From: Panopea generosa
Lineage: Eukaryota > Mollusca > Bivalvia > Adapedonta > Hiatellidae
Assembly: GCA_029582155.1 (NCBI GenBank)
Contig: CM055899.1
Location: 78,155,719 to 78,219,718 of the forward strand
DNA: 64,000 bases
Direction of reading: 5' to 3'
The notes under the pieces are model-generated. The model had not been told where the DNA came from. It searched no databases and saw only the letters and a program-made list of their open reading frames with translations. Positions 844 to 54,032 of this stretch are shown here, in pieces. Every line of letters begins with the position of its first letter. The stretch's first letter is position 1. Made by a program: the position numbers and the translations under genes.

Positions 844-1023
844 ATCACGAGTTGCACCACATTAAGAAATAGTCTTGCGCATATGTAGATATACGCAACA
901 ACCTCGAACATTGCACGTGCCGTGTCTGTGGAACCATATTCTATGACGTCACGGGAACTGACAGAGGTTACGACGGAAACGGTGAGGCAAAACAGGCTCA
1001 GGAGATATATTATTGCATAACAC
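844..1023 (-). CDS. TRP gene exon 9 (transmembrane segments S1 and S2)
   Basis: 180 nt. Acceptor TTCTGTTGCATTGCAG, donor CGTGAT|GTAAGTAT. It takes CT from exon 8 and leaves AT. It encodes S1 (YAIIYLLSLFCLTVSVVT), an extracellular loop with RDVIEYGSTDTAR, and S2 (MFEVVAYIYICARLFLNVVQ). The same frame runs on upstream into an ATA microsatellite, giving a spurious poly-leucine extension. The acceptor fixes the real border. The next exon lies outside the window. Confidence 0.88.
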
Positions 1024-4000
1024 CTGCAATGCAACAGAAATGCATTTAGATTAACATGTGTTTTATCATTCGACAATAATAATTGAAATAATAATAATAA
1101 TAAAAAGAATAATAAGAATAATAATAATAATAATAATAAAAATAATAATAAAACAATAAAATAAATAATAACAATGACTTTGTTTAACAATAAAAACCAA
1201 TTATATTAAGTCCAATTTTCTTTGAAGTCCTAATTATATACAAATCATGAACATGAAAATGTGAATATAAACCGACTAAGATATTTTGAAAAGCAGTGAA
1301 TAATCTATACACAAATATAAAGGCAATACATAATTTGTACACAAATGTAAAGGCAATATATAATTTGTACACAAATATAAAGGCAATAAACAATTTATAC
1401 ACAAATATAAACTTAAGGTAATTTACAATTTGTACACAAATATAAAGGCAATATACAATTTATACACAAATATAAAGGCAATATATAACTTGTACACAAA
1501 TATAAAGGCAATATATAATTTTTACACAAATATAAAGGCAATGGATAATTTGTACACAAATATAAAGGCAATATATAATTTGTACACAAATATAAAGGCA
1601 ATATACACTTTGTACACAAATATAAAGGCAATATACAATTTGTACACAAATATAAAGGCAATGGATAATGTGTACACACATATAAAGGCAATATAAAATT
1701 TATACACAAATATAAAGGTAATATACAATTTGTACACAAATATAAAGGCAATATACAATTTGCACACAAATTTAAAGGCAATATACAATTTATACACACA
1801 TATAAAGGCAATGGATAATTTATAAACTAATATAAAAACAATGGGTAACTTATGAACTAATATAAAGGGAATTGAAAACTTCTAAACTAATTTAAGACAA
1901 TGGATATATTTAATACTAATATAAACATTTGCATATTATCTGGTGCATTATACATACATACTTTATTTTAAGCTATTAAAACTACTACATTGTTTGATGA
2001 AGAACTTCAATAATGGAATTCAATGGCTCCTGATAATGGTAATGATTTTTTTGAATGTTTTTCAATATGTGTTTTGGAGCTAACATAGATCATAGGTTAA
2101 TAAAACGATTTTTGTATACATATCTAAACGTGTTGCAAAGATAAGATGGTAGATCTTCATTTACTATTGTCAATATTAAAACCGATTTTTGTGTTTATCT
2201 CTTGCAGGAAAATCCATCTATTTAAATGCAGACAATGAAATCTAATAGTAGCCACCTGTTTCTAAGCTTTCACTCGTGCTCTTTCGTAATATTTTAGGTT
2301 TTATAATTATATTCTATATTCATTCATTCTCTTTTGCGTTCGTTTAATAAATTCTTTTTGAGACAAAATTAAAATTCATTTACAAGGGTTTCTTTGAAAA
2401 GCTCGACCAAAAAATAGTGAATAAAGTCTAAATATAGTAAAAAAACTGGGTGCCAAGCGAGGAAGCTTCTAGTATCATTGTTGCAAATCTTTGCCATACT
2501 CCAGCCGAGAATGGAACCTACGATCTTCCACAAGTGACGTGGACGCTCTACGAATAAATCAGCACTGCGGTTGCTTAAAGACAAAGAAAAAACTATGACA
2601 GGAGAAGAGAGAAGACTATTGCTTCGTTATCTATTTTTGAAGCTTCATGTGGCACGGTTTTGCTGTTATGTCATACTTACAGAAACCTCGTCCCTGCAAA
2701 TGAACTCCACTTCTTGTCAATCAGCAGCCGGACAACGTCATGATTGATTAAATTCTAAAGTAAGACAGGAGATGAAAATACAGCATTGCAATATGATGTA
2801 ATTAAATAAGTGATTTTATATTGGCGCATTTATTGGTCCAAGGATTATAGAGTGGCTGACTTTATGACAGTGTTACGTTATCAATATTTATGATATTGTC
2901 ATAATATTTTCACACAATATACGCAACGAATTGATGTAATTGGTATATACTGATATTTGATATAGTTACTTTATCCGTTTTTGATCAATGCTAATACGTC
3001 GCAGGTGACCAATTAGAAATTTGGCCCAGTGTATATTTAATCTGTAGTACGGACCCAGCTTTCCCGATTGGGTCCATTAAAAAGCAATGCTCGGAAAGCC
3101 GCATTTAAGCACGTTGACGGGTCAATAGCATCAGCTTAAAGTTTGAATGACGTCACAGTTCAATTATTATGAAATGTGTGGGTCAGGCATATAATTCCTT
3201 CTTTTTCATTGGTGGTTAGTAGACCTGATGCGGGAGATATCAGGTTCTGGGAAATATTGTATGATAAGTTTTATTGCATTATTTTTTTTTCACTTAATAC
3301 CATTGATTATAACGTCAATACGCTACTGTTGTGCTAAGGGTTTACCATATTGCCTTCTTAAAACCATTGGTTATAACGTCAATACATTACTGTTGTGCTA
3401 AGGTTTTACCATATTGCCTTCTAAAACCATTGGTTATGACGTCAATACGCTACTGTTGTGCTAAGGTTTTACCATATTGCCTTCTGAATACCATTGATTA
3501 TAACGTCAGTATGCTACTGTTGTGCTAAGAGTTTACCAATACGCTACTGTTGTGCTAAGGTTTTACCATATTGCCTTCTGAATACCACTGGTTATAACGT
3601 CAATACGCTACTGTTGTGCTAAGGTTTTACCACATTGCCTTCAGAATACCATTGTTTATAACGTCAATACGCTACTGTTGTGCTAAGGGTTTTCCATATT
3701 GCCTTCTGAATACCACTGGTTATAACGTCAATACGCTACTGTTGTGCTAAGGTTTTACCATATTGCCTTCTGAATACCATTGGTTATAACGTCAATACGC
3801 TACTGTTGTGCTAAGGTTTTACCATAATGCCTTCTGAATACCATTGGATATAACGTCAATACGCTACTGTTGTGCTAATATTTTACCATATTGCCTTCTG
3901 AATACCATTGGTTATAACGTCAATACGCTACTGTTGTGCTAAGGGTTTTCCATATTGCCTTCTGAATACCATTGGATATAACGTCAATACGCTACTGTTG

Positions 4001-7000
4001 TGCTAATATTTTACCATATTGCCTCCTGAATACCATTGATTATAACGTCAATACGCTACTGCTGTGCTAATATTTTACCATATTGCCTTCTTTTACTAGC
4101 ATTTGAAAGGCAGACATCAGGTTCGGGTCGAATTCTTTCTTGGTTGGTTCATACCCACATTCATCGGCTTCCAGAATGTCGTAGTGTACTTCGTGTGTTC
4201 CATCCACGCTCTTCTCTAAACAGCAATCGAGGATTGCTGATGCCGCTTTCTGAAATGTTTATATGAAAAGTTTCATAGAAGAACAATGACGTATCGAACA
4301 TAAGAATATATATCACCGACAGGAGACATGGCATACACAGGATACAACCAGTAAAGCAGCGTACAACATACTGGTTGGGGTTCAACGTCACTTTGAACAG
4401 TTCAACTTATGTTCCAACATCACACACAAACTAACAGAAAGGGCAATTCCTTTTCAATATGTATTTATTCTACATTATTACCTATTTCGTTCAAACTTTA
4501 ATAAAATCGAATAACACATATGTACGTTTCTAAACATAGTTCAAAGAAGTCCACCATCTTAGTGTAACTGTTCTGCCTCTCCCATCTAAAACTGTTCCTA
4601 CTAAAAAACCTGCTCTAGCTTTCATCCCAGCTCCTCACAGCTAGACTCTTAGATCTACTTTATCTCCATCCCAGCCTTAACAGCTAGACTCCCACTTAAC
4701 AGCTTGACACCACTCGGCCACGGAGGACCCTCTACATTGTACAGACTAATTATAGTAACACGTTTATAGCCTACACAAATACATGAGAATACAGGTTCAT
4801 TTGCTCTGAAAGCATACACATAAAGGGAGATAACTAAATTCACAACAACGGAATTTACGATATTTTTGTTGTATATCATATCGTGTATATTTACTATGAC
4901 AACATTGTATTTGTGTATTTGATGTCACATGTATGTTAAGAGGGCCCCAAAGAGGTTTAATTTTGTCACCGTCTATGAATAAAGACTTTTCTTATTTACT
5001 CGCTATATTTACTTATTCTTACCTCAAAGTCATTGTTAAGGTAATCCTGTATGTTTAATCTAGCCTTTGATGAAGCTCGTTTGAATAAAAGCCGCACGCT
5101 ACAATAGAACAGACTGGCTGTACAAGGTTGTTAATAAAAATCACCATGAACCTGCTTAATTGATATAAATAAAACTGGTTTATCATCGATATACATTTCA
5201 CTAAATAGGTTCCCCCGCAGCTGAGTATGCGGTTCTACATTTTGAGTAATTATTTTAAAAAACGTACAGATATGCAATTAATGATTACTTTGAAATGCAT
5301 TCATACTTGATGTTAGTTCTTCATCTAATCATACGTAATGATTGATTGAACATTTAGCGTCATTTTTATGTCATCGAGGGCTAACAGACTATCAGTTAAG
5401 CTAACAACTTTTTTCTCTTAAATCAGAGATGAAAGATAAATGACAAGACACACGAGTGTGGCCGTGGGCGTGTATTCGAACTCTCTATTGATAGTCAGAC
5501 GCGTTACCGACTGAGCTAATCGGGCACGGCTCATGCGTTATTAATAACTGTGGTTTATTTCCATGAGCCATAATGGTTCTTAATTAACCATAAGGTATAA
5601 AATAATGTATCATAACTGTTTAAATATTTATATTGTTCTATCATTTAGAGTAAATAAAATGAAAGACAACATAGTTTTGTAATAATAAAAGACAGTTTAT
5701 CTCCTGCCTATAGAATATGTAAGTATAATACATAGGCGAGTAGGATTCTCATATGCAATCATATGAATATGTTTCTATGTATCATACGAGTATTATATGA
5801 GAATTATATGAGATAATTGCCATAATTTTTATGATTCTTATATGAGATGTGCATCTGTTCATATGATTTTTATATCAGATGAGAATCTGTTCATATGATT
5901 CGTATATGAGATGAAAAAATGTTAATATGATTCAGTCTGTTAATATGAATCTTATACAAGATGAGAACTGTTCTGCCCATATGAGTCTTATACAATATAC
6001 TAGTATGAAGTGAAAAAATGTTCATATGAATCATTTGAACATTTTATGATTCTTATCTATACACCCTAGTCTGAAGTTTATATCATTCTCATATGAGAAT
6101 CCACTCATTACGGTGGCGAACCCACGTAACATTATGGTATTGGGTGGTGTAAAATTGGTGGAAGAAAAAAAGACGAAACAAAGACGAATGTCGTCTCTGT
6201 GTAGAGATGAACCATCGGGGCAATCAAGTGGTCATGCAAAAAGTGCAACGGCGTTACTATGTAAATTGCACCATTCATTGCCATATTTTAACTGAATAAA
6301 ATACGCCCTTTGCACTTTTTGCAAAAAATACGAATTTTGCATATGCAAGACTACTCATTACTGTACAGAGACGGCGTTCAACTTTGTTTCGTGTATTTTC
6401 GTGAAATGATAAGAAAGAACTGTTATTTTCAATAATGTTACCTGAAGCGGGCAGTTTTGCTCCGGTATTTACACACCTCCATTCCGTTAAGTGGTTTTGC
6501 CACCGTGTTTATACGACACATTTCAAGTTGAAATCATATACGCCTATTTTTATGATTATCACATGAAGTATCTATTGCCTGTATAGTATCCTCAAATGAG
6601 ATTTTCAATTTATCTCATATACCCATAGTCTACACACTTCCATGAACGCCAAAATTATTTCGCGTCATGTAGTTCCACTACCATATTCCGATATAAATGG
6701 GTGGGGGGTGGGGGGGGGGGGGGGTGGACACAAAACATAATAGTAACATGAGTTGTCAGATGACAACAAAGCTCGGGATAAAATTCACCATCCATGTAAA
6801 GATTGAGATTGGAGGTAAACACCAAAACTTAAACGCAACTGAATGCAAAAGTTTAACCTGGTTGTCTACATCCGAAAAAATAAGTCTAAAAAGGGCCATA
6901 ACTTTGCCAACATGCAATCCAGAGTTATGGTTCGTGTGTCCCATCGATGATGGTGAAGACACATGTGAAGTTTCATTCATATCCAATGAGTGGTTGCACA

Positions 7001-10000
7001 GAAATATTACCTGATAAAAAAACTTTAACCTGAAACATGTAGCTCAAAAAAGGCCATAACTCTGCCAAAATGCAACCACGAGTTATGGTTCTTATCTCTG
7101 TGTTTCATCGAAGATGGTAAACACAATGTAAAGTTTCATTCATATCCAATGAGTGGTTGCATAGATATTTTACCTGATAAAAAAACTTTAACCTGAAAAA
7201 TTAAGTCCAAAAAGGGCCATAACTCTGCCAAAACACATCCCGAGTTATGGTTCTTGTCTGTGAGTGTTCCATCAATGATAGTAAACACACATGTTGAGTT
7301 TCATTTATATCCAATGAGTGGTTATGGAAGCAGATTTACACAAGCTTCAAAAGCTTTTTACTGTATCCTTTCCACATAATTCGTTAAACGTATGCCTTTA
7401 TTGTTAAATGTATGCTAAATATATGTACTTATGTGAATAAAATATTGTTTAAACTAACTAAACGCAAAAGTTTGACCTGGGTGTCTAAGTGCAAAAAGGG
7501 CCATAACTGTGCCAAAATGCAATCCAGAGTTATGTGTCTTGTCTCTGTGTATTCCATTGATGATGCTGAACACACATGCAAAGTTTCATTTATATCCAAT
7601 GAGTGGTTGAATAGATATATTAAAGTTAAACTCAACTAAACGCAAAAGTTTAGCCTGGGTATCTAAGTCCAAAAAGGGTCATAACTGTGCAAAAATGCAA
7701 TCCATAGTAACAGTTATGGTTCGTATCTGTGTGCGTTCCATTGATGATGGTGAATACACATGCAAAGTTTCAGTTATATCCAAAGAGTGGTTGCATAGAT
7801 ATCTTAAACTTTAACGCAAAAGTTTGACCTGAGTGTCTACAGAAGACGCCGACGACGACGACGACGACGCGGGGGTCATGGCAATAGCTCTCCTTGGACT
7901 TCGTCCCGGCGAGCTAAACAAATGGAATTATAAAGATTACATTTTTCAAGGAGATAATGCATGCCTTAAATTTGCCGAATAACGCTCTAGTGTAAAAGTT
8001 ATTCGTAGACTTTCTGAAATAACGGTGAAATATAAGTATTTCATAGATTTTTACGAATAAGGTATTAAAATATTAAGTCATGCAAAGACCATGCCGAGTA
8101 ACGGTCAACTATCAAGTCATGCATTGACCTTGCCGAATAATGGTCAACAATAAAAGCATGCATAGAACTTGCCGAATAACGGTCAAATATGAAGTACTTA
8201 ACAAACCTTACCGAATAACGGTCAACAATAAAGCCATGCACAGAACTTGACGAATAGCTGTTAAATATGAATTATTGCACAGACCTTGTCGAATAATGGT
8301 CAAATATGAAGTATTCCATAGACCTTGCCGATTAACGGTCAACAATCAAGTCATGCATAGACCTTTAGAATAATGATCAAGTATGAAGTACTGCATAGAC
8401 CTTGCTAAGTAACGGCCAACGATAAAGTCAGGCATAGACCTTGCCGAATTACGGTCAAATATGAAGTCATGAACAGACATTGCCGAATAACGGCCAACAA
8501 TTAAACCATGCATAAACTTGCCGAAATTAGTAACTGGCAAATATGAAGTTTTTCATAGACCTTGCCGAATAACGGTCAAAACTTAAGTCATGCATAGACC
8601 TTGTGAATAACGATCAAATATGAAGTGTTGCATAGACCTTATTGAGTTACGGTCAATGATAAAGTCATGCATAGACCTTGCCGAATAATGGTCAAATATG
8701 AAGTCATGCATAGACCTTGGCGAATAACGGTCAACAATAAAATCATGCATAGAACTTGCCGAATAACGGTGAAATATGATGTGTTTAACAGACCTTACGG
8801 AATAACGGTCATAAATAAAGTCATGCATAGACATTGCCGAATAACGATCAAATATGAAGTCATGCACGGACCTTACCGAAAAACGGTCAACAATCAAATC
8901 ATGCATAGACCTTACCGAATAACGGTCAATAATAAAATCATGCATATAACTTGTCGAATAACGGTCAAATATGAAGTACTGCATAGACCTTGTCGAATAA
9001 CGGTCAACAATAAAACCGTGCATAGACCTTACCGAATAACGGTCAACAATAAAATCATGCATAGAACTTGTCGAATAACGGTCAAATATAAAGTACTGCA
9101 TAGACCTTGGCGAATAACGGTCAACAATAAAATCATGAATAGGCCCTGCCGAATAATGGTCAACAATAAAGTCAAGCGCAGAACTTGCCGAATAATGGTC
9201 AAATATTAAGTCCTTTATAGACTTTGCTGAGCAACGCTAAAATACATTAAAGATTTCAAACTTTCTATTTGTGTTGTTTAGACTGATTCTTTCACATGCA
9301 GTATTACCCTGAGCATTGATTTTAAACCTAAAATAAACCAACCTTGCGTTATCCATATAACGAACGATGAAAGCGGCAACATCATCGTTTCGCTCCTTCA
9401 AAGCAACCTCCAGCGGCGTTTCTCCCGCGTCATTCTTTGCCAGCGCAGTAAAATCGTGATCAAGCAGTTTTTCCGTCACGTAGAAAAGGTTGTTTTTAGC
9501 AGCAAGATGCAGCGGTGTATTTCCATCCTCGTCTACAAGTTTATTGAAATTAATTTCTCCGTCAGCATACGCTAAGAATGATGTCACTGCTTGCATCACC
9601 TACACAAATAATACGGACGAATCATATAGTAATATAAACATTGGGCTAAACAATCAACGTTATGTGGAGCGCATGGTCCAGTGGTAGAGCATCAAAGCTA
9701 TGATCGGAGGGTCGGGGTTTCGATCCTCCCCAAGGCTATGTGCTGTGTCCTGGAGCAAGACGACTTTTCTGCATATGTATAGTACTGGTTCTACACAGTA
9801 ACACTTCGAGCGTGATTTGAATCAGTTGTAAAACTTGTTTCAAAATTGAAGTAACGTTAATTAGTTTACTAAACAGTTAACGGTACAAGAAAATCAAATC
9901 AATAGTTAAATGCTAATGTGGAAATTTTAAGTTCTGGAATTTCTCAGTTCCGAGTGTGACTTCCTTGTGTATTCATTACAGCGGTGCATCGTCTGTGCAT

Positions 10001-31000: not shown

Positions 31001-34000
31001 GACATACATGTAAATGTTATCTGAGACAATACATAGTTTCGTGCAGTATTGCCCATAAAAATAGATCGAATTTTGGTTAACTAGACTAAAACGTTTTTGA
31101 GAAAGGGCGCTAACGATAAACGCAGAATATTAACATTGTGTAGGCCAAAGTTAGTCATGCTTTCAGGGCATAGCTTACCAAATAAAAATGCTGCATGGTT
31201 TTGAGCAAAAGCAAAAGTATTCATTAAACAACTATGGGCCAAAATTGATGACTATGTTAAACAGTTTCTGAAATACAGCTCAACGCAAAACGAACACTTA
31301 ACGTTAACGCAGCCGCATACCTATATATTTTTCTTTGCAAATGCAAGAAAAAAAATGTACAAGCAAAACTTTTATTTTAGAAGTTTAGAATGTGAAATTC
31401 GCGCAGGACAACACACATTGATCGATTAACTATCTAATATTATATAATAATTGATGGAGGGCAGTCTAAAATTATTGTCAACGTACATGTAACTGCACAC
31501 GAGTTACGGCTATCGCCGCGGCTTTAAAAAGAAGGGTCGTTTATCGTCGTGACCTTTTGGCAGTACTGCTTTTTTCAAGAGAACACAGAAAAATGCATAA
31601 TGTATAAATCACATATGTATATGTATGAATGAAAACTGAGTAAGTCTTAAAGAATGTGGGTGATGGGTGGGGTATTAGTGTGGAATCCAACAGATTTGTA
31701 AATAGTGTGATTCTAAATACAACATGATACACTTTAACGGACAATTCCATGAACAGTTTACAGCTTTCTCTCATACAACATCTACACCTTATATATGGCA
31801 TGGAACGTGATATACTGTTGTTACTGTATGGTGTATAACGTTGCTTTCAACAGTGCTTTCCGTCATATCGCGATAGATTCTACTTGAGACAATACTATAT
31901 TAAGCGCTGGGGTGTCATACTGCAGACACATGGTGTGATACTTTACCCAGTCATATTATACTGACACCTGGCCGACCAGATATAGAACTAACCACTTTAT
32001 GGTGAGAGCCAAGCGAGGAAGCTTCTTGTAACATTTTATCAAGAATTTGGTAGGACCCGATCGGGTATCGAACCCACGACCTACCGCATACGAAGCAGTC
32101 TTTCTACCACTACACCACCACTGCGGTAGCGTGATATAAGCATGTTATGAAAAACAGATTTTAGATATCTTATATTGTATACCATTTCTATAAAATACAC
32201 GGGGTTGTTGGTACATTGTAGGTGGACTGGAAAACGATTGCATCTGGTACATCGAATTGTTCTGTAATTAAAACGAGTAAAAAAATGTTATACATAGAAA
32301 TGGTTTCACAGCTCTTCTTCATACGTCTTGTTTCTTCTATAAATAGTATTTCTTTTACATTAAAGTGTGTTTTTATTGATATTTCATATAAATTTTAAAG
32401 TTTATAGTTGGTACCCAAATATACGCACTTCAAAACGTATATTAAAGTTCTGTGAAGATTTAGAAGTAAAGCTTTTACAACTTGATTAGTGTGAACTGTT
32501 TATAATATAGTCAATATTCTTTGTCCAATATAACATATATTTATTCTAAGTAATTAAAATGAAACGTATTTTGAAATAAACAATGAAGGGAGGCAAAAAA
32601 ATAACGAACACAGTACATTCATTCATTTCTAACCATCTATCGCATTTCATGGTAGTTTAATCAGTATATAATAACAGTACATTCATTCATTTCTTACCAT
32701 CTATCACATTTCATGGTAGTTTAACCAGTATATAATAACAGTGCATTCATTAGTTAGCATCGTCTATTAAATCTCGTGGTAGCAAATACAACTCTAAATA
32801 GTTCCACGTTTTACAATATAGATATCGACGGACACATTTACTTTGCAAAAACACAGAATACATTAAACACAATTTAATTACATACGTTACACTTAAAAAT
32901 ACCGATTTCCAATACTTCGTCATAAACACAATAAAAAACTCTCATAATACGTTCCCAGATTCCTTAGCCTTTATCCTAATAAACAACTCTGAATATTGCT
33001 GATATGAAATTAAATTCGCCACCTTCTAGTCTGAATATATATCAACACTTTATACAAAATTTTACTACTGTCGAAATATAGCTATCGGACATTCAAAAAA
33101 CTTCTAGCAAACCTAATATAAAATCTGCTTACTCAGAATGCCACATGTAATGTCAGTTTATGCAGAGGTCTCTGCCACATCGATCTTGCAATGATCGTAT
33201 TTGCTAACAGACCCAGATTTAAGCTTATACTTGTTTATTTGTGAAAGAAATCTACATAACACAGATTTATCTCAAGGAAATCATGCAATTAAATTATAAT
33301 CCGAAGTCGTAAGACTATAAATGTGCAACAACTATGATTAGTTTTACAATAATAAATCCCTTTATTTTTTCCTAAAATACTCATTACTTAACAGATTTTT
33401 ATGAAAAACGTCAAAATGAGTTTTTCTTTAATTTAAAAATGAATATATAAAATATATTAAAAATGTGTTATCCGGGCCTCTCTAATTGGCAATAAGTTTA
33501 ACAAACCTACTCTTCGTTACCGATATACGCCTATACAATATACAATGGCACTGATATTCGGGCCACGTCAACAAACCTACTCTTCTTTACCGATATACGC
33601 CTGTACAATATACAACGGCACTGATATTTGGGCCACGTCAACAAACCTACTCTTCGTTACCGATATACACCTATACAATAAATAACGGCACTGATATTCA
33701 GGCCACGTCAACAAACCTACTCTTCGTTACCGATATACGCCTATACAATATACAATGGCACTGATATTCGGGCCACGTCAACAAACCTACTCTTCGTTAC
33801 CGATATACGCCTATACAATATACAATGGCACTGATATTCGGGCCACGTCAACAAACCTACTCTTCTTTACCGATATACGCCTATACAATATACAACGGCA
33901 CTGATATTCGGGCCACGTCAACAAACCTACTCTTCTTTACCGATATACGCCTGTACAATATACAACGGCACTGATATTCCGGCCACGTCAACAAACCTAC

Positions 34001-37000
34001 TCTTCGTTACCGATATACGCCTATACAATATACAACAGCACTGATATTCAGGCCACGTCAACAAACCTACTCTTCGTTACCGATATACGCCTATACAATA
34101 TACAACGGCACTGATATTCGGACCACGTCAACAATCCTACTCTTCTTTACCGATATACGCCTGAACAATATACAACGGCACTGATATTCGGGCCCAGTCA
34201 ACAAACCTACTCTTCTTTAGCGATATACGCCTGTACAATATACAACGTCACTGATATTCGGGTCACGTTAACAAACCTACTCTTCTTTACCGATTTACGC
34301 CTGTACAATATACAACGTCACTGATATTCAGGCCACGTCAACAAACCTACTCTTCGTTACCGATATACACCTATACAATATACAAAGTCACTGATATTCA
34401 GGCCACGTCAACAAACCTACTCTTCTTTACCGATATACTCCTATACAATATACAACGGCACTGATATTCAGGCCACGTCAACAAACCTACTCTTCATTAC
34501 CGATATACGCCTATGCAATATACAACGGCACTGATATTCGAGCCACGTCAACAAACCTACTCTTCTTTACCGATATACGCCTATACAATATACAACGGCA
34601 CTGATATTCAGGCCACATCAACAAACCTACTCTTCATTACCGATAAACGCATATACAATATACAACGGCACTGATATTCAGGCCACGTCAACAAACCTTC
34701 TCTTCATTACCGATATACGCCTATACAATTTACTTTGGTACTGATATTCAAGCCAAGTCAACAAACTTAATCTGTTACACTCTTCTAGCTAATGGCATTA
34801 AGAACAATATTTAGCTTACCTCGGATATCCCAGTTTCCATTGTCATACTTCTTACTGCTTTTCTGTGTTTGCCCAAAAGTCTAAAATATTTTTTTTAAAA
34901 AGTTATATACATGAAAGTCAACATCATGCATGATAGGAGTAATGCCAGTGTTTTCTCCTGGTATGTGAAATTGACACAAGTGTCTAACTTAACACCTCAG
35001 CCGGAGATTTTCTTTTTCATTTCGAATGTTTCACTTTCTCTAAATGGTTATTTGAACTCTCATTACATATAGTCTCTTTTTCTGACTCAAAATGTTCTCA
35101 GCGTTGCCTTCGCATCTCATTTCCTTTACTGAAAAATCTCAAGTTCTCCAAATGATATACTTACTCATTAGTAAACATGCAGAATTACCAGCGTAATTAA
35201 CATTTAAGAAGTTCAAAAATTTGAGTTGAGGAAAATCTCAAGTTTTGATGTTGAGTGAACTGAGTGCCTGATTTTCTGACAGTTATGACTGTTCGAAGAT
35301 CACGTGATATTATAATTACATATACAGAAGTGTTATTTTCATGATTTTTCACTAGGCAACAACATAATGTACCTTTTCACATCTTCTAGATATTATTTGA
35401 ACAAACGCAAGTTTACGCTGCTTAAACGTTTAATGAATTAACCAGGTTTTGTCGTTCCCTCAGATATATATGTACTACACGTAAGAATTTTGAATGAATT
35501 TAGTAAAGTTGTACATTTCCACAGACATAATTTTTTATACGTTTTATAAATTTCAGGATGAAAACACACGGTTCTTGCGGCACCTGCGCCTAGCACATTC
35601 CACTAACCGCGCTACAACAACGTTGCGAAAAAACGTACATAATGACGTCGTCATTAATGCACACATTACATAGAGGTATTGTTATTATGTTTTCAATGTA
35701 TTTTCCTATTTTTATGCGTTTTTGGAGCGGAGTAACCTTACAACAGACAACTGGAATATCTTTGGCCCTTTTTGATTCAGACACACGGTCTATGTAGTGT
35801 CAGCACCAATAACATTAATGACGACGTATTTACCACAACAACAAAAAAAACGCTGCGCAAATTAAGAGTGGTACAAGTCAGTTATTAGGTCCGAAAAGTT
35901 TTTATCAAACTCACTTTTAATTGGTTGACCGATCGACTCTTTTTGCTACGGATTTCGGAAGTAGTCCCTGTGGTGACGTATATAGGGAGCAGTAATTTTT
36001 ACGAATCAGATTATCCATGTTAGTATGATTTACGTTTTATATAATAATTCCGAAAATAACAGTGGTATTGGTGATTGGAAATTTATTAAAAAAAAATAAA
36101 GTGTGTTTATTGATTCAAAATTGGAAAAAAATATAAATAGAAATATTGACAGAAACAGTATTGTTACAAATTAAAAATACAATTACAAATAAAAAAATAA
36201 ATACATAAGTAAAAGGTAATTTTATAATTATCAACCATATTACATAAAAGCAATAACGTATTGCAACTTATTAATTATAAAATATCACAGAATGCAATTT
36301 AATACTACTGTTTTGGCAAAATCCAGTGTGAAAAAGTAAATCGATCACAATAAAATATTCTATAAAAACCATGGTAACTTAAATGAAATGTATGGCAAAT
36401 CTCAAAGAAGTATTAAATTAATGCAACATTGGACATACATGATAGTGTGTAATAACCTTGGATTGCCCATAAAGCCCGAAGGCTTATTTCCAATGAGGTC
36501 TTGTTGGTTTTACAAGGCAGGCATAATCTATCAAGTCTGCTTAAATATTTTTTTTCATTCATACAACGGTGTGTAATATATTCTGGTTGACATTGGTGCT
36601 TTGAATCATCATTTTTTTGTTTGAATCAATGTTTTAGACTTACCCATCTTCGCTGCTATCGCTGTTATACTCGGTCGTTGTTATATCGTCATCTTTGTTG
36701 GCGGAACCATCTCCAGCTGCAAAATACGAATATATTTATAGGGACAGTTGAAAATGCCGTTGTTTATAGAGTGTATGGCTAAACATCAAGTTTGCTTGGA
36801 ATATATTTGTTCTAATGTATGTTCCAATTGCAATCCTGATTTAATTTGTTGTCATTGTTTTATTGAAATCATATACATCTATCTCTGTCTCACTTTAAAG
36901 ATGCACCTTTACCTTCGTTTAAGAGATGTGTTGTCAATCCAGAAAACTATTTGTTTCTTTTGATTATTTGTGTATAAACTGGTAAAAGTCAGCTTATTAG

Positions 37001-40000
37001 TATTTTATCGTTTTTTTCAGTACTGATGTACACATGTGGTTAAACTCTTCGATATTGAAGGTTCTTTAGCGTAGGTTAGAGTTAGTCTTGATCATCTGCG
37101 ACGCTTGCGTTTCTATACAGACAAACGTCTTGACAAAGTGTATCAAAAAGAAAAAAACTTTGGATCTGTAAGTACATGTAAGCTATGACTGGCCGAAACG
37201 ACACCTCTGCAACGGTTATGTTTTAACAAAATTTCAACATATTTATTCCGATGGAAGTCATTGCAGTTATCTTGTAAAAGATGTTTATCAAATAGAGAAT
37301 ATCTAATAAATGTATATAGAAATAAACAACTTAACAATAGTCATTTGAAATACTATGAAAATCTACAAGGAAATCCGATTTTTTGAACAACCAATCAAAA
37401 ACTTTATTAGGTTTCCGTTATATTTTTATTCCCGGTCGGACGTTTTGAGACGTTTGTCTTTTAAAAAGGGAAGCGTCGCAGATGGTAAAGACTAGTTTTT
37501 TGTTGGTTATTATAATTGTGGCTATGGACCATTTTAAAACGTATGGCTATGTTATTTAATAAAAAAGATCATGAAAACGTTCGCGAAAGAGTCTGTCTGG
37601 ATCGGTCGTCTTCGCATAAGTGTAAAGTGTGACAATTATATCCGATGGTTTTTTATAGATTATTAAATAAAATTACATCTATTTTGTGCGTATATTGTGA
37701 CGCTGTACTATCTATTACAGGTTTTAATTATGTTTCGTTAGTTAAAACAGGATGTGAATGATTTACAGTTTCCGCATAATACATCACACGTATATAATAT
37801 GCTGTGACGAGTGTTAAGTTAGACTTGAGAACCTGCGGTGTATATCTTTATTTTTTTTCAAATAACTTGGAAAACCATACAAACAAATTATGTTTGATTA
37901 TGTATTTCATTCTCTATATGAAATTCGTATAATTTAATATTTTAATTAAACACGGTGGTCTTATTGTGCACTTTTTGTTCACATTTATTATTTGTATCCG
38001 CACGTTGGTCTCATATTTAGTTTCACTGTTGTATCCACGCGTTGACTATTCACCATTTGTATCCATGCGGTGCTCTCGTATTACACTTCCATGTTAACTA
38101 TTCACAATTTGTATCCACACGATGATCTCGTGTTACACTTCCCTGTTGACTATTAATTACCCACGCGGTGGTCATGTATAACACTTCCCTGTTGACTGTT
38201 TACTATCTGTATCCACGCGGTGGTTTCGTATTACACTTCCCTGTTAATTATTCACAATCTGTATCCACGTGGTGGTCTCGTATTACACTTTCCTGTTGAC
38301 TAGTCACTATTTGTATCCACGCGGAGGTGTAGTATTACACTTCCATGTTAACTATTCACAATCTGTATCTACGCGTTGGTCTCGTATTACACTTCCATGT
38401 TAACTATTCACAATCTGTATCTACGCGTTGGTCTCGTATTACACTTCCATGTTTACTGTTAACTATTTGTATCCACGCGGTGGTCTCGTATTACACTTCC
38501 ATTTTTACTATTCACTATCCGTATCCACACGGTGATCTCAAATTACGCTTACCTGTTAACTATTCTCTATTTGTATCCTCGCGATGGTCTCGTATTACAC
38601 TTCCCTGTTGTCTATTCACTATATATATCCACGCGGTGGTCTAATATTACGATTCCCTGTAACTATTCACTATATGTATCCACGTGTGGTGTCGTAATAT
38701 TCTTCCGTGTTAACTATTCACTATCTGTATCCAAGCAGTGATCTCGTATTACATTTCCCTGTTTACTATTCACTATCCACGTGGTGGTCTCGTATTGCGC
38801 TTTCCTGTTGACTATTCACTATCAACGCGGTGGTCTCGTATTACGCTTCACTGTTGACTTTTCACTATCCACGTGGTGGTCTCGTATTGCGCTTTCCTGT
38901 TGGCTATTCACTATCCACGCGGTGGTCTCGTATTACGCTTCACTGTTGCCTATTCACTATTTGTATCCACTTGGTGGTCTCGTATTACACTTCTGTGTTA
39001 CCAATTTACAATGTGTGTCTATGCGGTGATCTAGAATTACGATTCCGTTTTGACTATTCACTATCTGTATCCACGCGGTGGTGTAGTATTACACTTTCCT
39101 GTTGACTTTTCATTGTTTTCCCTCATTCTTTGAAACTTTGGGTCATTTGTCCCCTATGTGATGAGACACATCCCGAGCGACTAACTAAAGCTGGTGTTCA
39201 TTAAATGAATATGTTACTTTTTACAATTTCTAGTTAAATAAACAGTTCATGCATAATTCACAAATCACCATTCGGTAGCAACTATATATTAAATGATAAC
39301 TAGGTAAAATAGCATCCACGAGGCGATCAATGAATGTATGACATTTCCAAAAAAACTGTGTTAAGACATGTATACGAACGCGTAGCACTGTATAGTACAC
39401 TATCAGAGTAAAGTGTGTGCGATATTATGTTATATTGATCCGGTCCATCAGCAGACAGACACTATGACTAACCGATAACCTTGGTCATATTCGATACTTG
39501 CTTTTCCGTTAATACAGGAAAAAATAGTCTTGCTCGTATTCTATACTTGCTTTTCTAAATGACAAACGTCTTGACAATTTCTTATTTAAAAACTATTGTA
39601 ACGGAATTCTAATAAAGTTTCTGATTGGTAAATACATTCATACTACTATGGTGAGTTTCATAGTATTTTAAAACAATTTGGATTTTTTTATTTTAGAATC
39701 ATGTTAAGATATGTTTATTATGCTCATTTTTATTTATCTAAGCCAATATATCAGCAATGTCTTTCTTCGGAATTAAATAGATCTTATTTTTATTAACCGT
39801 TACAGCGGTGTGTTTGCCTCGGCAACTTAAATATTACTTCTTGTTCCATTTATTCTGTCAAGACGCTTGTTTTTAAGAAAAGTAAGCGTCGAGGATGATC
39901 AAAATCACACAAAAAAGTTTAAAACCGAAAGTAATTATAAAATGCGGATGGCTAAGACAAACACGCCACCAGTATGGCTAATGTTTTAAATGTAAAGAAA

Positions 40001-40509
40001 ATATTTCATTTTTATAAGGCATTGAATATATTATCTTATACGTTAGACATATGTCACCTAAAACGATCACTGGTCTCGTATTTTAAGCTTAGTGTTTCAT
40101 TAAAAGCACACCTATTTTGCCCTGTTTTCAGTATCCTTTTGCCAGTCACAAAATACCATTTTCAGGAGGAAGAAGTGATGTGAATTCAGGTTTTCAGGAT
40201 GTTCTCAAGTCGACAATTCACAGTGGAGCGCGTGGTCCAGTGATAGAGTACTGAACCCATGATTGAAGGGTTGCGTGTTCGACACTCGGCAACTGCTATG
40301 TGTGGTGTCCTTGAGCAAGACACCTTTTCCGCATGTGCTTAGTACTGATTCTAACCAGGAAGACTTCAATCGTGATTTGCCTAAGTCGAAGTAAGATGAA
40401 TACGTTTAAACTAAACTAACAAATCTTTTTATTTACACAAACATTTAAGAAACTGTTCACTGCCAAGTCAATACTACTTACCAGCGTTCGCCTGGTCGCC
40501 CCTATCCAT
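844..40509 (-). CDS. TRP-family cation channel, ankyrin-bearing (TRPA/TRPV-like), N-terminal part, nine exons, 3' end outside window
   Basis: Spliced from minus-strand exons 40482-40509, 36644-36716, 34820-34880, 17489-17533, 9343-9599, 5023-5098, 4097-4249, 2681-2754 and 844-1023 (947 nt, 315 codons plus 2 nt). All eight junctions have AG/GT borders and matching phases, with no stop. The predicted protein has an acidic Ser/Asp-rich N-terminus (residues 10-33), ankyrin motifs TPLHLAA (97-103) and TPLEVAL (130-136) with a probable degenerate repeat before them (55-92), a linker with AASAILDCC (182-190), the pre-S1 motif LLIDKKWSSFAG (241-252), S1 (about 258-275) and S2 (about 293-315). A K-W-x-x-F motif just before S1, after ankyrin repeats, is typical of TRPV and invertebrate TRPA channels, which pass cations across the plasma membrane in sensory signalling. 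Only two or three ankyrin repeats are seen, fewer than in TRPV (six) or TRPA1 (over a dozen). Further phase-0 exons in introns 3 or 4 cannot be excluded. The pore (S5-S6) lies beyond the left edge, so subfamily and ion selectivity cannot be judged. Confidence 0.85.
1080..1172. repeat. AAT/ATA microsatellite
   Basis: Imperfect trinucleotide run of ATA/AAT units, just upstream of the exon 9 acceptor. It accounts for the poly-leucine open frame on the minus strand. Confidence 0.85.
1290..1930. repeat. 30-bp minisatellite, about 21 copies
   Basis: The unit resembles TTTGTACACAAATATAAAGG plus CAATATACAA. Two copies fit each 60-base line, so the period is exactly 30. It decays at the right end, with added indels after about 1810. 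Because 30 is a multiple of three, several frames stay open on both strands. These are not genes. It lies in intron 8. Confidence 0.92.
2446..2573 (-). mobile_element. SINE-1 fragment (tRNA-derived head, degenerate)
   Basis: Head and start of body of the same SINE as at 31817-32133 and 42568-42880. The reverse strand shows GTAGAGCGTCC, AGATCGTAGGTTCC (B-box region) and TAGAAGCTTCCTCGCTTG. It lacks the 3' half. It is more diverged than the other copies, so older. Confidence 0.7.
2681..2754 (-). CDS. TRP gene exon 8 (pre-S1 motif)
   Basis: 74 nt with a strong acceptor (TCTTACTTTAG) and a consensus donor (TTTCT|GTAAGTAT). It encodes INHDVVRLLIDKKWSSFAG and TRF, leaving CT for exon 9. The pattern LLxxKWxxF next to a membrane segment is the most diagnostic piece for a TRP channel in this window. 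Confidence 0.9.
3295..4089. repeat. 64-bp minisatellite, about 12 copies
   Basis: Unit of 62-64 bp containing TTATAACGTCAATACGCTAC, TGTTGTGCTAAGGTTTTACC and ATATTGCCTTCTGAATACC. One truncated unit occurs at about 3530. The array stops at the donor site of TRP exon 7. Confidence 0.9.
4097..4249 (-). CDS. TRP gene exon 7 (pre-S1 linker)
   Basis: 153 nt, 51 codons, phase 0 on both sides. Acceptor TAAACATTTCAG, donor ATGCTA|GTAAAAG. It encodes KAASAILDCCLEKS, EVHYDILEAD and PNLMSAFQML. A conserved Cys-bearing ILDCC helix, an acidic strand and a hydrophobic LMSAFQML segment fit the ankyrin-to-S1 linker of TRPA/TRPV channels. The 64-bp tandem array begins only a few bases inside the intron, right after the donor. 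Confidence 0.85.
4640..4735 (-). repeat. tRNA-like A-box segment, possible SINE fragment
   Basis: On the minus strand, GTGGCCGAGTGG resembles the D-arm of a Leu/Ser-type tRNA. It is followed by internally repeated AGCTGTTAAG and CTAGCTGT motifs. There is no foldable full tRNA, so this is only a possible tRNA-derived repeat. Confidence 0.3.
5023..5098 (-). CDS. TRP gene exon 6 (linker after ankyrin repeats)
   Basis: 76 nt between acceptor TCTGTTCTATTGTAG and donor TTTGAG|GTAAGA. With 2 nt from exon 5 it encodes SVRLLFKR and NIQDYLNNDFE, ending at a codon boundary. The length (1 mod 3) is exactly what is needed to join exons 5 and 7. An M-D-N-x-x-V-R-x-L-F type motif after the last ankyrin repeat is common in invertebrate TRPA-like channels (from memory, not searched). 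Confidence 0.85.
5340..5530 (-). mobile_element. SINE-2 copy a
   Basis: On the minus strand: tRNA-like head (GATTAGCTCAGTCGG, then AGAGTTCGAAT), a shortened body (CATTTATCTTTCATCTCTGA) and tail (AAAATGACGCTAAATGTTCA). Tail and head match the copies at 43750, 47010 and 61509. Part of the body is deleted. Confidence 0.75.
5735..6107. repeat. Irregular CATATG-rich repeat
   Basis: About nine units of roughly 40 bp built on TGTTCATATGATTC and TTATATGAGATGAGAATC. Many short palindromes, including ATTCTCATATGAGAAT at about 6093-6108. The right edge touches the inverted-repeat element at 6108. Confidence 0.7.
6108..6497. mobile_element. MITE-like foldback element, about 390 bp
   Basis: The two halves are imperfect reverse complements. 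ATTACGGTGGCGAA at the left end pairs with TTTTGCCACCGTG at the right end, and ACGAAACAAAGACGAATG with the region around 6370-6395. In the middle, TGCAAAAAGTGCAA pairs with TTGCACTTTTTGCA. No coding capacity. It splits or borders the CATATG-rich repeat, which resumes in weaker form after 6540. Confidence 0.7.
6690..7920 (+). mobile_element. Pearl-like non-autonomous element: core tandem repeats, GAC microsatellite, conserved tail
   Basis: Five or six degenerate core repeats of about 160-190 bp contain GGGCCATAACTCTGCCAAAA, CAATCCAGAGTTATGGTTC and TTCATTCATATCCAATGAGT. They are followed by a (GAC)n run at 7846-7868 and a tail ending TCCCGGCGAGCTAAA, which can form a TAGCTC/GAGCTA hairpin. That order matches the published bivalve pearl family. 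A G-run opens it at 6703-6724. The short open frames over it are repeat artefacts. Confidence 0.6.
8055..9236. repeat. 39-bp minisatellite, about 30 copies
   Basis: Unit of 39 bp with CATGCATAGACCTTGCCGAA and TAACGGTCAACAATAAA. Two variants (GGTCAACAATAAA and GGTCAAATATGAAGT) often alternate. 39 is a multiple of three, so frames of 170-180 codons stay open on both strands without being genes. It lies in intron 5, ending about 100 bp from exon 5. Confidence 0.92.
9343..9599 (-). CDS. TRP gene exon 5 (ankyrin repeats)
   Basis: 257 nt after acceptor TTATTTGTGTAG, starting in phase 0 with VMQAVTSF. It carries two ankyrin repeats: NTPLHLAAKNN followed by VTEKLLDHD, and ETPLEVALKERNDDVAAFIV, closing with RYMDNA. 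Donor GCAAG|GTTGGT leaves 2 nt, which are completed by exon 6. The frame runs on without a stop past the donor to 9237, but that part is not ankyrin-like and is read as intron. It lies between the 39-bp array and SINE-3. GC is higher than in the flanks. Confidence 0.9.
9663..9874 (+). mobile_element. SINE-3 copy a
   Basis: tRNA-like head GGAGCGCATGGTCCAGTGGT, a B-box-like GGGTTTCGATCC, then a body with TGTGTCCTGGAGCAAGAC and TTCGAGCGTGATTTGAA. It matches the copy at 40221-40418 throughout. It lies in intron 4 just upstream (minus sense) of exon 5. Confidence 0.75.
9955..17225. repeat. 108-bp satellite array, about 67 copies
   Basis: Each 108-bp unit contains GTGACCTCCTTGTGCATTCA, TTACAGCGGTGCATCGTCTG, GAATTGATGAGGTTCTGAGC and TTAAGTCTCGGCATAATAAC. 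Units are about 85-95% alike by eye. Frames of up to 164 codons stay open because 108 is a multiple of three. It fills intron 4 of the TRP gene. A 2.6-kb stretch is repeated at an offset of 2768 bp (listed separately). Confidence 0.95.
11179..16557 (+). repeat. Recent 2768-bp duplication inside the 108-bp array
   Basis: Positions 11179-13789 and 13947-16557 match almost base for base at a constant offset of 2768. I noticed one difference (T at 12394 against C at 15162). Rare variants such as the 'CTGCATCGTC' junction at 12857 recur at exactly +2768, so the block was copied as a unit. Confidence 0.9.
17489..17533 (-). CDS. TRP gene exon 4 (start of ankyrin region)
   Basis: 45 nt, 15 codons, phase 0 on both sides: YTELLATLASGEHGE. 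Acceptor TCTATTTTGCAG, donor GGTGAG|GTAATT. An alternative donor 5 bases earlier (CACG|GTGAGG) puts exon 5 out of frame. The exon sits in a 400-bp island of unique sequence between the 108-bp and 54-bp arrays, which supports selection on it. The sequence reads as helix A of a degenerate ankyrin repeat that continues into exon 5. Confidence 0.75.
17640..26900. repeat. 54-bp satellite array, about 170 copies
   Basis: The unit contains TTTGTTTGTCCTGAAGCTAC, AACTGTGCCTGTATGTTCAT and ACTAAACTCAGATC. Subtypes differ at a few sites (ACTAAACTCAGATC, AATAAACCCAGTTC, AATCAACTCAGTTC with CTTATTTCTCC). Frames up to 314 codons are open only because 54 is a multiple of three. It lies in intron 3 and grades into the dimeric array at 26900. 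Confidence 0.95.
18731..26698 (+). repeat. Recent 3984-bp tandem duplication inside the 54-bp array
   Basis: Copy 1 (18731-22714) and copy 2 (22715-26698) are head to tail and abut. About four or five differences were noticed in 3984 bases (for example 19254, 19558, 20014 and 21668 against +3984), so about 99.9% identity. The older, diverged CTTATTTCTCC-type units at 22300-22700 are copied as well. Confidence 0.92.
26900..29690. repeat. 104-bp dimeric higher-order array, about 27 copies
   Basis: Two related monomers alternate: about 54 bp (TTTGTTTCTGCTTAAGCTAC, ACCTGAATGTTTGTAACCAA) and about 50 bp (TTTGTCTTTAAACTACAACT, TGAATGTTCATAAACAACTC). Both share CTACAACTGTGCCTG with the neighbouring 54-bp array, so they have a common origin. 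An internal block is repeated at an offset of 1490-1594 (for example 27436 and 28926, 27801 and 29395). Confidence 0.9.
29715..29825. repeat. Short G/C-richer low-complexity repeat (about 27-30 bp unit)
   Basis: Three or four imperfect copies of GCTGGTTCCCCTG / GCTGGTCCCCCTTG. Minus-strand frames read as Gly/Pro or Gly/Gln/His-rich stretches, and an acceptor-like CAG lies at about 29820. No length compatible with phase-0 insertion between TRP exons 3 and 4 was found, so it is not called as an exon. Confidence 0.6.
29826..30289. other. Intron 3 sequence, nothing coding seen
   Basis: AT-rich. It contains a short dispersed motif (TAATACCGATGAATGACGGA at about 30167) that recurs in similar form at about 43519. 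Confidence 0.5.
30290..31310. repeat. Degenerate tandem repeat of about 190-240 bp units
   Basis: Recurring motifs: AACGCAAGC / AACGCAAAATATGAC, TAGGCTAAGTTA / TAAGCTAAGTTA, CGTAGAGGT, and AATGCTGCATGGTTTT. About five diverged units. The short frame at 30859-31080 falls inside and is not a gene. Confidence 0.6.
31817..32133 (-). mobile_element. SINE-1 copy, full length, about 315 bp
   Basis: On the minus strand: a tRNA-Ala-like head (GGTGGTGTAGTGGTAGAAAG, GTGGGTTCGATACCC), body with AGAAGCTTCCTCGCTTGG and GTGTCAGTATAATATGACTG, and end with TATCGCGATATGAC and a CAGTAACAAC tail. It matches 42568-42880 along its whole length. It lies in intron 3. Confidence 0.9.
32134..32604. other. Intron 3 sequence, nothing seen
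   Basis: AT-rich; no repeat structure, exon or element recognised. Confidence 0.5.
32605..32790. repeat. Three-copy 64-bp tandem repeat
   Basis: ACAGTACATTCATTCATTTC and CATTTCATGGTAGTTTAA recur at a spacing of 64-65 bp. The third copy is diverged. Confidence 0.85.
32791..33490. other. Intron 3 sequence, nothing seen
   Basis: AT-rich unique-looking sequence with no recognisable exon or element. Confidence 0.5.
33495..34770. repeat. 70-bp minisatellite, about 18 copies
   Basis: Unit of 70 bp with ACAAACCTACTCTTCTTTAC, CGATATACGCCTATACAATA and CACTGATATTCGGGCCACGT. Units are highly alike (mostly 1-4 changes each), so it was homogenised recently. It lies in intron 3 about 50 bp from exon 3. 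Confidence 0.95.
34820..34880 (-). CDS. TRP gene exon 3
   Basis: 61 nt, with acceptor ATATTTTAG (weak pyrimidine tract) and strong donor CCGAG|GTAAGC. Together with 2 nt from exon 2 it gives 21 codons, including GKHRKAVRSM and ending ISE at a codon boundary. It is basic, has no domain signature, and leads into the ankyrin part. The 70-bp array starts about 50 bp downstream, in intron 3. Confidence 0.65.
34881..36643. other. Intron 2, nothing coding supported
   Basis: AT-rich. A 64-codon minus-strand frame at 35590-35784 has no recognised domain and no splice context. A hairpin-forming GCCCGAAGGCTTATT at about 36475-36489 resembles short dispersed mollusc motifs. Confidence 0.5.
36644..36716 (-). 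CDS. TRP gene exon 2 (acidic N-terminal segment)
   Basis: 73 nt between acceptor TATTTTGCAG and donor GATGG|GTAAGT. It takes 1 nt from exon 1 and leaves 2 nt. It encodes a Ser/Asp/Glu-rich stretch with KDDDITTTEYNSDSSEDG at its end, likely disordered cytosolic sequence. The borders and phase agree with exons 1 and 3. There is no domain signature of its own. Confidence 0.7.
36717..37082. other. Intron 1 sequence, nothing seen
   Basis: AT-rich. The plus-strand frame 36748-36963 is Cys-rich but has no recognised domain or splice context. Confidence 0.45.
37083..37490. mobile_element. MITE family A, copy 1
   Basis: Terminal inverted repeats of about 45 bp: left ATCATCTGCGACGCTTGCGT and ACAAACGTCTTGAC, right AGACGTTTGTC and GGAAGCGTCGCAGATGGT. 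The interior matches the copy at 39530-39905 in inverse orientation (for example AACCAATCAAAAACTTTATTA). It lies in intron 1. Confidence 0.75.
37975..39115. repeat. 52-bp minisatellite, about 22 copies
   Basis: Unit with GTATCCACGCGGTGGTCTCG, TATTACACTTCCCTGTTGAC and TATTCACTATCT. Some units lack about 9 bp (the TGTATC part). Overlapping short plus-strand frames are repeat artefacts. It lies in intron 1. Confidence 0.92.
39116..39529. other. Intron 1 sequence, nothing seen
   Basis: Unique-looking AT-rich sequence between the 52-bp array and the second MITE copy. No exon or element recognised. Confidence 0.5.
39530..39905. mobile_element. MITE family A, copy 2 (opposite orientation)
   Basis: TIRs with ATGACAAACGTCTTGACA at the left and TGTCAAGACGCTTG...AAGCGTCGAGGATGATCA at the right. 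Interior motifs ATTCTAATAAAGTTTCTGAT and AACCGTTACAGCGGTGTG match copy 1 reversed. Confidence 0.7.
40221..40418 (+). mobile_element. SINE-3 copy b
   Basis: Head GGAGCGCGTGGTCCAGTGAT and GTGTTCGACACTC, body TGTCCTTGAGCAAGACACCT and CAATCGTGATTTGCC. It matches 9663-9874. It lies in intron 1 close to exon 1. Confidence 0.75.
40482..40509 (-). CDS. TRP gene exon 1 (start codon exon)
   Basis: The exon encodes MDRGDQANA and ends in phase 1 at a strong donor (CTG|GTAAGT). The ATG at 40509 is the start I prefer. The frame stays open upstream to an acceptor-like TTTTTCAG whose exon side begins at about 40562, so this exon may carry 5' untranslated sequence or a longer N-terminus (in-frame stretch ending HFAYM). 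A further upstream exon may lie to the right, but I did not find one. Confidence 0.6.
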
Positions 40510-51000: not shown

Positions 51001-51832
51001 TTATTTATTTCAGCTATATATTTAATACTATCTCGGATTTTTTTTGGTAGTTGTTATCTAAAAGAATGCTATTATTGATTTTGAAATAACCCGGACCTCT
51101 TTGTTCATTTAAAGGACTAAACGTGAAATATACTAGTGAGTGGTCTGATCTGATTCCTGAGGAAATTTTACATTTTGTTGTTTTGTTTATTATGTTTGAT
51201 GACGTTAAAAAATAATCAAGCCTACAAAATATTGGCGGTTTATGATTTGAATGCCATGTATAATGATTCGAGTTTGTATTAAAAACTCTCCAAATATCAT
51301 TTAAATCATATTCATTTATTAAAGCATTTATTTTTTCTCTGTTTTTTTTGTTAGTGTTTGTTCGTCCATTTTTCTTATCTTTTTCATTATCAATTATGGT
51401 ATTGAAATCGCCCCCTATTATAAGTGTCTGATTATCATATTGTTTAATTATATCTTCTAAACTTAAAAAAAATTCTGTGTCGTCATTATTTGGTCCGTAA
51501 ATATTAATTAAAACTATTTCCATTTCATTAATGTGAATTTTTAAAACTTGCATTCGCCCAGAAATAACTTCCTTGTATTCTAAAACAGTGAAAACTATCT
51601 TAGAACTAAATACGATACCTATACCAGTACTGTTTGAACTATTGCCACTAAAGTAAGCATTGCTTCCCCATTCTTGTTTCCATTTATCCATAAATTCTTC
51701 TTTATAATGTAGTTCTTGCAAAAAACATATGTCATATTTATTATGCTTTAACCATTCGAAAATCTGACGTCTTTTCCTATATTCACCTGCACCATTCACG
51801 TTAAAGGTGCAAACTTTTATTTTCATAGCCAT
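48059..51832 (-). pseudogene. LINE ORF2: endonuclease, reverse transcriptase, C-terminal zinc motif (broken)
   Basis: Total span about 1258 codons, usual for L1/Tx1 ORF2. An AP-type endonuclease at about 51832-51100 shows TFNVNG, LQELH, GGDFNT and RSDHS. Reverse transcriptase runs from about 50450 (NNKSPGSDGLTTEFY, RPITLLN, ADFEKAFDSLDHDF, GVRQGCPLSPYLF, FADDATF at 49750). The tail motif CDFCNMHEETIIHLFWEC is at about 48395-48450. Breaks: a frameshift in an A-run near 51048, stops at 50583-50585 and 50364-50366, and a frameshift in an A-run near 49757. In a working copy the product nicks target DNA and primes reverse transcription of the LINE RNA. Confidence 0.9.
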
Positions 51833-53443
51833 TTATACATGAGCAGGAAGAGAAAGCGGTTCACAACAGCACTATGTGCATTTCTGCAGCATTCAAACAG
51901 TAGGAACAGATAAGTCGAGTAAAGGAGTAGGTCACATGTAAAGAGAATAGCGTCATATATAGTTTTAGTGTGAATAAGATTAACATATTTTTACAGAGAT
52001 AAAACTATAGCTACAGTTAAGCCTTTTCCATAACAGTTACTTTTTTTTAACCACGTATAATTTTAGTCCGACATTTGCAATAATGTTTTTAAAATAATTT
52101 ATTACTTTTTTTTTTTTAAATCCTTTAAAATTATTTTCATATTGTATAATTATTTAATTGTGTATATAACACCTTTTCCCACTTTAGATAATCATTTAGG
52201 TTCCAACTCCATGTTTGTATTAATACGTATACAAATAAATATGTAAACATTTTAAAGAACAACGTACAACAAAGTTGTTTTACTAACAAAAATCCCTCTA
52301 CATTCGTATAGAGTCTTGGACTAAAACATTTTAAAAGACTTCATACTTTTTTCAGTAACAAAATTTTATCAAAAGAACCCAGCATATGTCATATGTTTTT
52401 TCCACATAACAAAAGGTACATCAAAAAGTTATTCTGTTTAGAAACCGTAGTATATAAACCATATCATATTTTACATATGTTTATACTGTCACATAACATC
52501 AAAAAGTATACCCACATAACAAAATGTTTGTACATATGTGAATATACATTATTATATTGATATTCACATTTTACCTTGCCTACATTTACCAATATTTTCT
52601 CCTTTGTTATTTTAAATGTCTAATAGTTAAACAGAATCATATAATTACTTATGTTTGTATTGTATAGTAGCTCCATCTTCTTTTATGGTAAAGTCATGTG
52701 CTTATACATTTTAAAAGCTGTATCAATAACCTGTTTCATATTTTTACACATACCAAAAAAAAATTCTCCTTTTTTTGAATACATGTATAAGCACATACAT
52801 GTATACCCACTTAACAAATTATTTTCTACACATAGGGTATTATATTAATAATCATATTTAATCTTTGCTTACACATATTAACAAAATTGTCCCCTTTCAT
52901 TTTTTAAATGTCTAATAGATACACCTTATCCTATTTTTACTTATGTTTATATTGTCACATACCTGTTTTAAAACCCTAACAGATGAAACCGTACCATATT
53001 TTACATATGTTTTCATTGTCATATATTATCAACACATATAACTACATAACTAAAGTCTTATTACACATGTGTGACTATACATTATTGTATTGATAGTCAT
53101 ACTTTATCTTGCTAACACTCATATACACACGTAATTATATTTTAATATTTTGATAGTCACATTCCATTTTTGCTGATACATAACAAAATAATTTTTATTT
53201 CAAAGAACCATTGTAAATCTGTATTACATAATATAAAACCATGTACACATGTAACCATAATTTTACCACGCACCCGTAAATGTACATTAATTACCTGGTC
53301 GTCATATCATTACGTTACAAAATCATAATTATTCTGTTTTTTGTAATTATTATGTTACAAAATCATAATTATTTTGTTTTTTTTTGTACTTACTCAGTAG
53401 TTAGGCCGTACCTGTGTATTTCAATCACATAATCGGCTAAAAC

Positions 53444-53447
<4 letters not shown>

Positions 53448-53496
<49 letters not shown>

Positions 53497-53976: not shown

Positions 53977-53985
<9 letters not shown>

Positions 53986-54031: not shown

Positions 54032-54032
<1 letters not shown>

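Follow-up and report, generated by a model that had tools for sequence, protein, structure and literature searches.

The DNA analysed here, a window of 64,000 nucleotides from Panopea generosa, carries with high confidence the 5' portion of a divergent gene, intact and conserved, that is predicted to encode a TRP cation channel. Judged from its sequence, the gene is real and the protein it would encode is a TRP channel; it belongs to an ordinary type of animal gene, as a divergent member with many relatives in the genome. The channel reading is based on exons 5–9 joining in frame, a second copy of the locus read in one frame, a match to the Pfam family Ion_trans (3.1e-13) and matches to solved structures in the PDB, and also on paralogues that keep the exon plan and on exons that differ less than introns between the two copies.

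Five exons within the window form the supported chain:

844–1023, minus strand: exon 9, S1 and S2, 180 nt, two bases passed on (borders, frame, paralogue matches).
2681–2754, minus strand: exon 8, pre-S1 motif LLIDKKWSSFAG, 74 nt, counterparts of equal length in gene 2 and the C8 gene.
4079–4249, minus strand: exon 7, linker, 171 nt, gene 2 counterpart of equal length (borders, frame, paralogue matches).
5023–5098, minus strand: exon 6, linker, 76 nt (borders, frame, match to the C6:32.38 paralogue).
9343–9599, minus strand: exon 5, ankyrin repeats, 257 nt, entered in phase 0 with two bases passed on (borders, frame, Pfam, homologues).

All five have AG and GT borders and matching phases on the minus strand and share a single stop-free frame. 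Across them the ankyrin part, the pre-S1 motif and S1–S2 follow in the order described in the earlier note, and exon 6, predicted there to have a length of 1 mod 3, measures 76 nt at 5098–5023. In Pfam searches exon 5 alone matched ankyrin families (Ank_2, 9.8e-10) and exon 9 alone matched no family; exon 5 is the only exon recognised on its own. A splice-site listing was empty at a high threshold and included the exons at a lower threshold (20 candidates). Exon 9 matches its equivalent in the second copy at 98% at the residue level.

Homologues of exon 5 are found in gene 2 (a tandem paralogue lying downstream on the same strand, with the exon order of gene 1, the gene of the window), in a gene on contig C8 and at C6:32.39. 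To gauge chance matches, we ran 13 exon peptides, taken from three paralogues (gene 2, the C8 gene and C6:32.38), against the window and, for comparison, against 10 Markov-random windows. Nine of the 13 recovered their own window exon at E < 1e-5 (gene 2 exons 5, 7, 8 and 9; C8 exons 5, 8 and 9; C6:32.38 exons 5 and 7), and the C6:32.38 exon 6 peptide matched window exon 6 at 7.9e-4. The other three (gene 2 exon 6, C8 exon 6 and C8 exon 7) gave no match to the window exon. With the same 13 queries, the best E-values in the random windows (n = 10) ranged from 0.005 to 0.15.

The locus has a second, near-identical copy on the same strand, ~720 kb away near C6:77.43–77.44 Mb. Directly left of the window the DNA reads N, and for this reason S3–S6 of the window's own copy are not visible. 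In the second copy, exons 5–9 continue into five further exons with fitting phases, 174, 156, 87, 190 and 417 nt long (the last including the stop), which encode S3–S4, S5, the pore, S6 and the C-terminal part. From exon 5 to the stop, the second copy has 10 exons that share a single reading frame (593 residues), and two bases are carried into its exon 10, as had been foreseen for the first pore-side exon. For the window's own copy the last exon can be read too, stop included and free of frameshifts. The S3–S6 exons predicted to lie to the left are present in both the second copy and the tandem paralogue; the window's own copy reads N there. The nine-exon extent given earlier was too short at this end, the second copy having five more exons.

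The two copies are collinear over at least ~80 kb, at offsets of 719.9, 720.6 and 727.7 kb. Between them we counted 7 mismatches in 1171 exon bases (six exons) and 100 in 4594 bases of introns and flanks (~2%; nine stretches hand-picked to avoid long satellites), with indels uncounted in both; the exons change less (Fisher p 1.3e-4). An uncollapsed allele and a recent duplication both fit the two copies. The chances appear even that the assembly failed to collapse two alleles and that the second copy is one of them rather than a duplicate gene: the extended collinearity at those three offsets, the intron mismatch of ~2% and the occurrence of more near-identical pairs elsewhere in the genome favour the allele, but one contig carries both copies.

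Ion_trans matches were also observed on C13, C14, C3 and C6, several of them in same-contig pairs of equal or near-equal score; such pairs on one contig may be uncollapsed alleles in the assembly. Separately, window positions 60700–61400 have copies at the second copy and, at 92–94%, on the small contigs C20 (two) and C26, with relatives at 70–71% on C15.

For the TRP assignment we used the protein of the second copy, in which a six-helix ion-transport domain and pore loop are present; the window's own copy is seen to S2. The Ion_trans match covers residues 197–429, across S1–S6, and the NCBIfam model TIGR00870 ('trp') matched at 1.9e-11 with 42.8 bits, far under its cut-off of 498.75. Plain ankyrins rank first in a PDB search with exon 5 included in the query, and with the ankyrin exon removed the best solved structures are TRPV and TRPA1 channels. 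Together with Ion_trans, these structures bear out the TRP identity that the earlier note had taken from family architecture.

It is very improbable that the exons are relics of a dead channel, a decayed TRP pseudogene. Long, satellite-filled introns and the unseen S3–S6 of the window's own copy would suit such a history, but exons 5–9 and the last exon of that copy are without stop or frameshift, as are all 10 exons in the second copy, and exon sequence has diverged less than intron sequence between the two. A gene for a soluble ankyrin protein, with the membrane exons belonging elsewhere, is scarcely credible: exon 5 alone has a Pfam match of its own and ankyrins top the PDB list when it is included, but in the second copy, as in the two paralogues that were modelled, membrane and pore exons continue the frame in an unchanged order, and Ion_trans covers S1–S6.

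The paralogues bear on the intact channel gene through their exon plan. Gene 2 has exons of 260, 79, 171, 74, 183, 174, 156, 87 and 208 nt plus a stop-bearing last exon, all in one frame, and both it and the C8 gene have exon lengths and phases near-identical to those of gene 1. Amino-acid identity is 49% over 451 codons between gene 1 (second copy) and gene 2 (dN 0.43), 44% over 443 between gene 1 and the C8 gene (dN 0.50), and 50% over 447 between gene 2 and the C8 gene (dN 0.44), with synonymous sites saturated in all three pairs. Identities of 44–50% and dN of 0.43–0.50 at saturated synonymous sites therefore indicate that the protein is conserved. In the C8 gene (stretch L038) two partial S6-exon starts, at ~4717–4770 and 4824–4871, precede the whole S6 exon at 5038–5214.

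A search of the genome with the gene 2 protein (464 aa) gave at least 79 exon matches, a lower bound with 91 of 149 candidates scored. Sorted by position, 78 of the 79 group into 14 loci, spread over five contigs:

C6: 78.14–78.17 (two genes), 77.42–77.44 (two genes), 32.342–32.351 and 32.368–32.389.
C8: 69.68.
C10: 12.50.
C5: 73.58, 48.38 and 48.54.
C4: 64.14–64.16, 64.30–64.33 and 64.36–64.37.

A few of the 78 matches are weak and contain several stops. The 79th belongs to a gene that, among PDB entries, matches NOMPC best (1.7e-92). Because alleles or recent copies may account for some of the loci, we infer a family of perhaps 10–14 genes.

The nine-exon model in the earlier note holds for exons 5–9, with their borders, phases and paralogue homologues; for exons 1–4 no homologue was found. 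Two of the upstream candidates, both unconfirmed, are:

36644–36716, minus strand: candidate exon 2, 73 nt (open frame and good borders only).
40482–40509, minus strand: candidate exon 1 with ATG, 28 nt (open frame and good donor only).

Further short open candidates, several of which fit the phases, lie between these two (40509–36644) and exon 5. Two candidate exons of the tandem paralogue gave nothing significant when searched upstream of exon 5, a pattern search of five regions for an ankyrin-like exon before exon 5 turned up only the paralogue's own candidate, and candidate first exons in the paralogues followed no consistent pattern. A genome search with region 36500–37000 returned a 99% copy at C6:77471647, and the 38 other listed matches fall in a dispersed repeat outside candidate exon 2. 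With phases met by several short candidates and the paralogue candidates matching nothing there, exons 1–4 are unsupported.

Satellites make up much of the DNA between the outermost claimed exons: arrays found by TRF total 25,396 of the 39,666 bases from 844 to 40509 (~25.4 of 39.7 kb). These arrays include:

1300–1925, no strand: 30-bp tandem array, intron 8 (TRF).
3293–4091, no strand: 64-bp minisatellite, starting inside exon 7 and running into intron 7 (TRF, unit listing, donor scores).
7972–9227, no strand: 39-bp tandem array, intron 5 (TRF).
9955–17220, no strand: 108-bp satellite upstream of exon 5 (TRF).
17641–29678, no strand: 54-bp satellite upstream of exon 5 (TRF to 29674, blastn self-similarity to 29678).
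33500–34773, no strand: 70-bp tandem array (TRF).
38041–39112, no strand: 52-bp tandem array (TRF).

Elsewhere in the window, minus-strand ORFs at 48059–55270 resemble those of a LINE-1-type element (endonuclease, reverse transcriptase and a coiled-coil first ORF, judged by eye), and 58700–59045 is a long 4-base repeat run with several frames open.

In the 64-bp units of the minisatellite, the final 12 bases of exon 7, GAAGGCAATATG, recur, followed mostly by GTAAAA. Donor-like sites with pattern scores of 1.4–1.57 number nine in the window, including the real donor, and 19 in the second copy (one weak match excluded per copy), and the array copy number is unequal in the two locus copies. The real exon 7 donor scores 1.57, not above most of the array copies, and read-through past it meets a stop after three codons. 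Exon 7 ends in the residues KEGNM, where the C6:32.38 paralogue has KDGN; for this reason the array probably grew out of the end of the exon. A minisatellite arising from a splice donor is not described in the portions of the literature examined, an absence that is not proven.

Compared with solved structures by phmmer, the linker and membrane part matched Drosophila Inactive at 1.5e-18, TRPV4 at 1.2e-8 and TRPA1 at 6.8e-6 (among the best 60 of 125 matches), and a profile of three members matched Inactive at 5.9e-21, TRPV1 at 2.9e-13, TRPV4 at 1.8e-12 and TRPA1 at 1.3e-6 (among the best 60 of 141). Exons 6–9 alone matched Inactive at 3.8e-4 and the rest above 0.1, and the linker profile alone matched no TRP channel up to E = 5. 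An assignment to TRPA had been considered from a presumed likeness of the linker; we rejected it because the linker profile matched no TRP channel and TRPV outscored TRPA1. TRPA1 as the nearest relative was thus not borne out among solved structures, in which TRPA1 is the only TRPA channel compared. In a 10-row tree, which contained no TRPA1 row and carried a long-branch warning, the three members grouped apart (99/99) and their place was left open.

The pore segments of the three members are RTITDGSPIVSYTG, RTMVESGPVVEYTG and RTMIEAQPVVEYTG. The filter of TRPV1–4 is GMGD; this type is absent from all three members, which have TITDG, MVESG and MIEAQ where TRPV4 has GMGD, and TRPV5 and Inactive likewise depart from it. 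TRPV channels have six ankyrin repeats and TRPA channels a long series of 14 or more, and a C-terminal coiled coil is a trait of TRPA1. One ankyrin exon has been found here so far, and the last exon gave only sub-threshold Pfam matches, such as DUF7365 (coiled-coil region) and Laminin_II.

The family resembles TRPV (Drosophila Inactive, vertebrate TRPV1 and TRPV4) in that these are its top solved structures across S1–S6, in the ankyrin repeats ahead of the membrane part and in a hydrophobic S6 with LLN.LIA, but differs in its filters, in the one ankyrin exon found so far and in its long C-terminal tail. The likeness to TRPA1 extends from linker to S5 in the profile match and, with the ankyrin exon, over query residues 14–212 at 2e-13; TRPA1 nevertheless scores below TRPV, is missed by the linker alone and has a long ankyrin series not found here. 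NOMPC (TRPN) shares the TRP pore and ankyrin repeats and is present in the ankyrin-driven PDB list, but the genome's own NOMPC-like gene is separate and branches apart in the tree. Within the superfamily, the sequence would place the family on the TRPV/TRPA side, closest to TRPV by score. The structure scores and the tree do not fix its subfamily, which the earlier note had put forward as inference.

Among published accounts, seen in part, the Pacific oyster has 66 TRP genes with tandem duplication (PMC8004665) and a scallop 17 (PMC8539334), and a cephalopod study describes two clades: gammaTRPA, whose cephalopod sequences lie on the TRPA side and mostly lack annotation, and gammaTRPV, on the TRPV side and restricted to molluscs (PMC13402157). 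TRP expansion in bivalves is known, and the present family may be one of these two clades; on the clade descriptions alone, either could hold it. The portions of these sources examined do not describe the family as such, an absence that is not proven. Possible, though doubtful, is that the family forms a TRP subfamily of its own, outside both TRPA and TRPV, characterised by a short ankyrin part, the filter RT-[IM]-x-[DE]-x-x-P-[IV]-V-x-YTG, multiplication to 14 loci (perhaps 10–14 genes) and one member with a minisatellite born from the exon 7 splice junction, which would now present a series of donor copies of nearly equal strength.

The predicted protein has a short ankyrin segment, a linker of ~100 residues, six helices with a pore loop and a tail that may be a coiled coil. 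By analogy with TRPV and TRPA channels, four subunits would build a cation pore, probably calcium-permeable, and the cytoplasmic ankyrin and linker parts would relay a stimulus and open it; the C-terminal tail may, again by analogy, keep the subunits together. The filter carries an acidic residue in all three members, which would suit cation passage.

Genes with exons of 74–257 nt and satellite-filled introns are easily overlooked. The exon 7 array provides a natural test of donor choice among many alike sites and also bears on how minisatellites begin at exon ends. If the family is a separate subfamily, its members would be new candidate sensors with an unusual filter.
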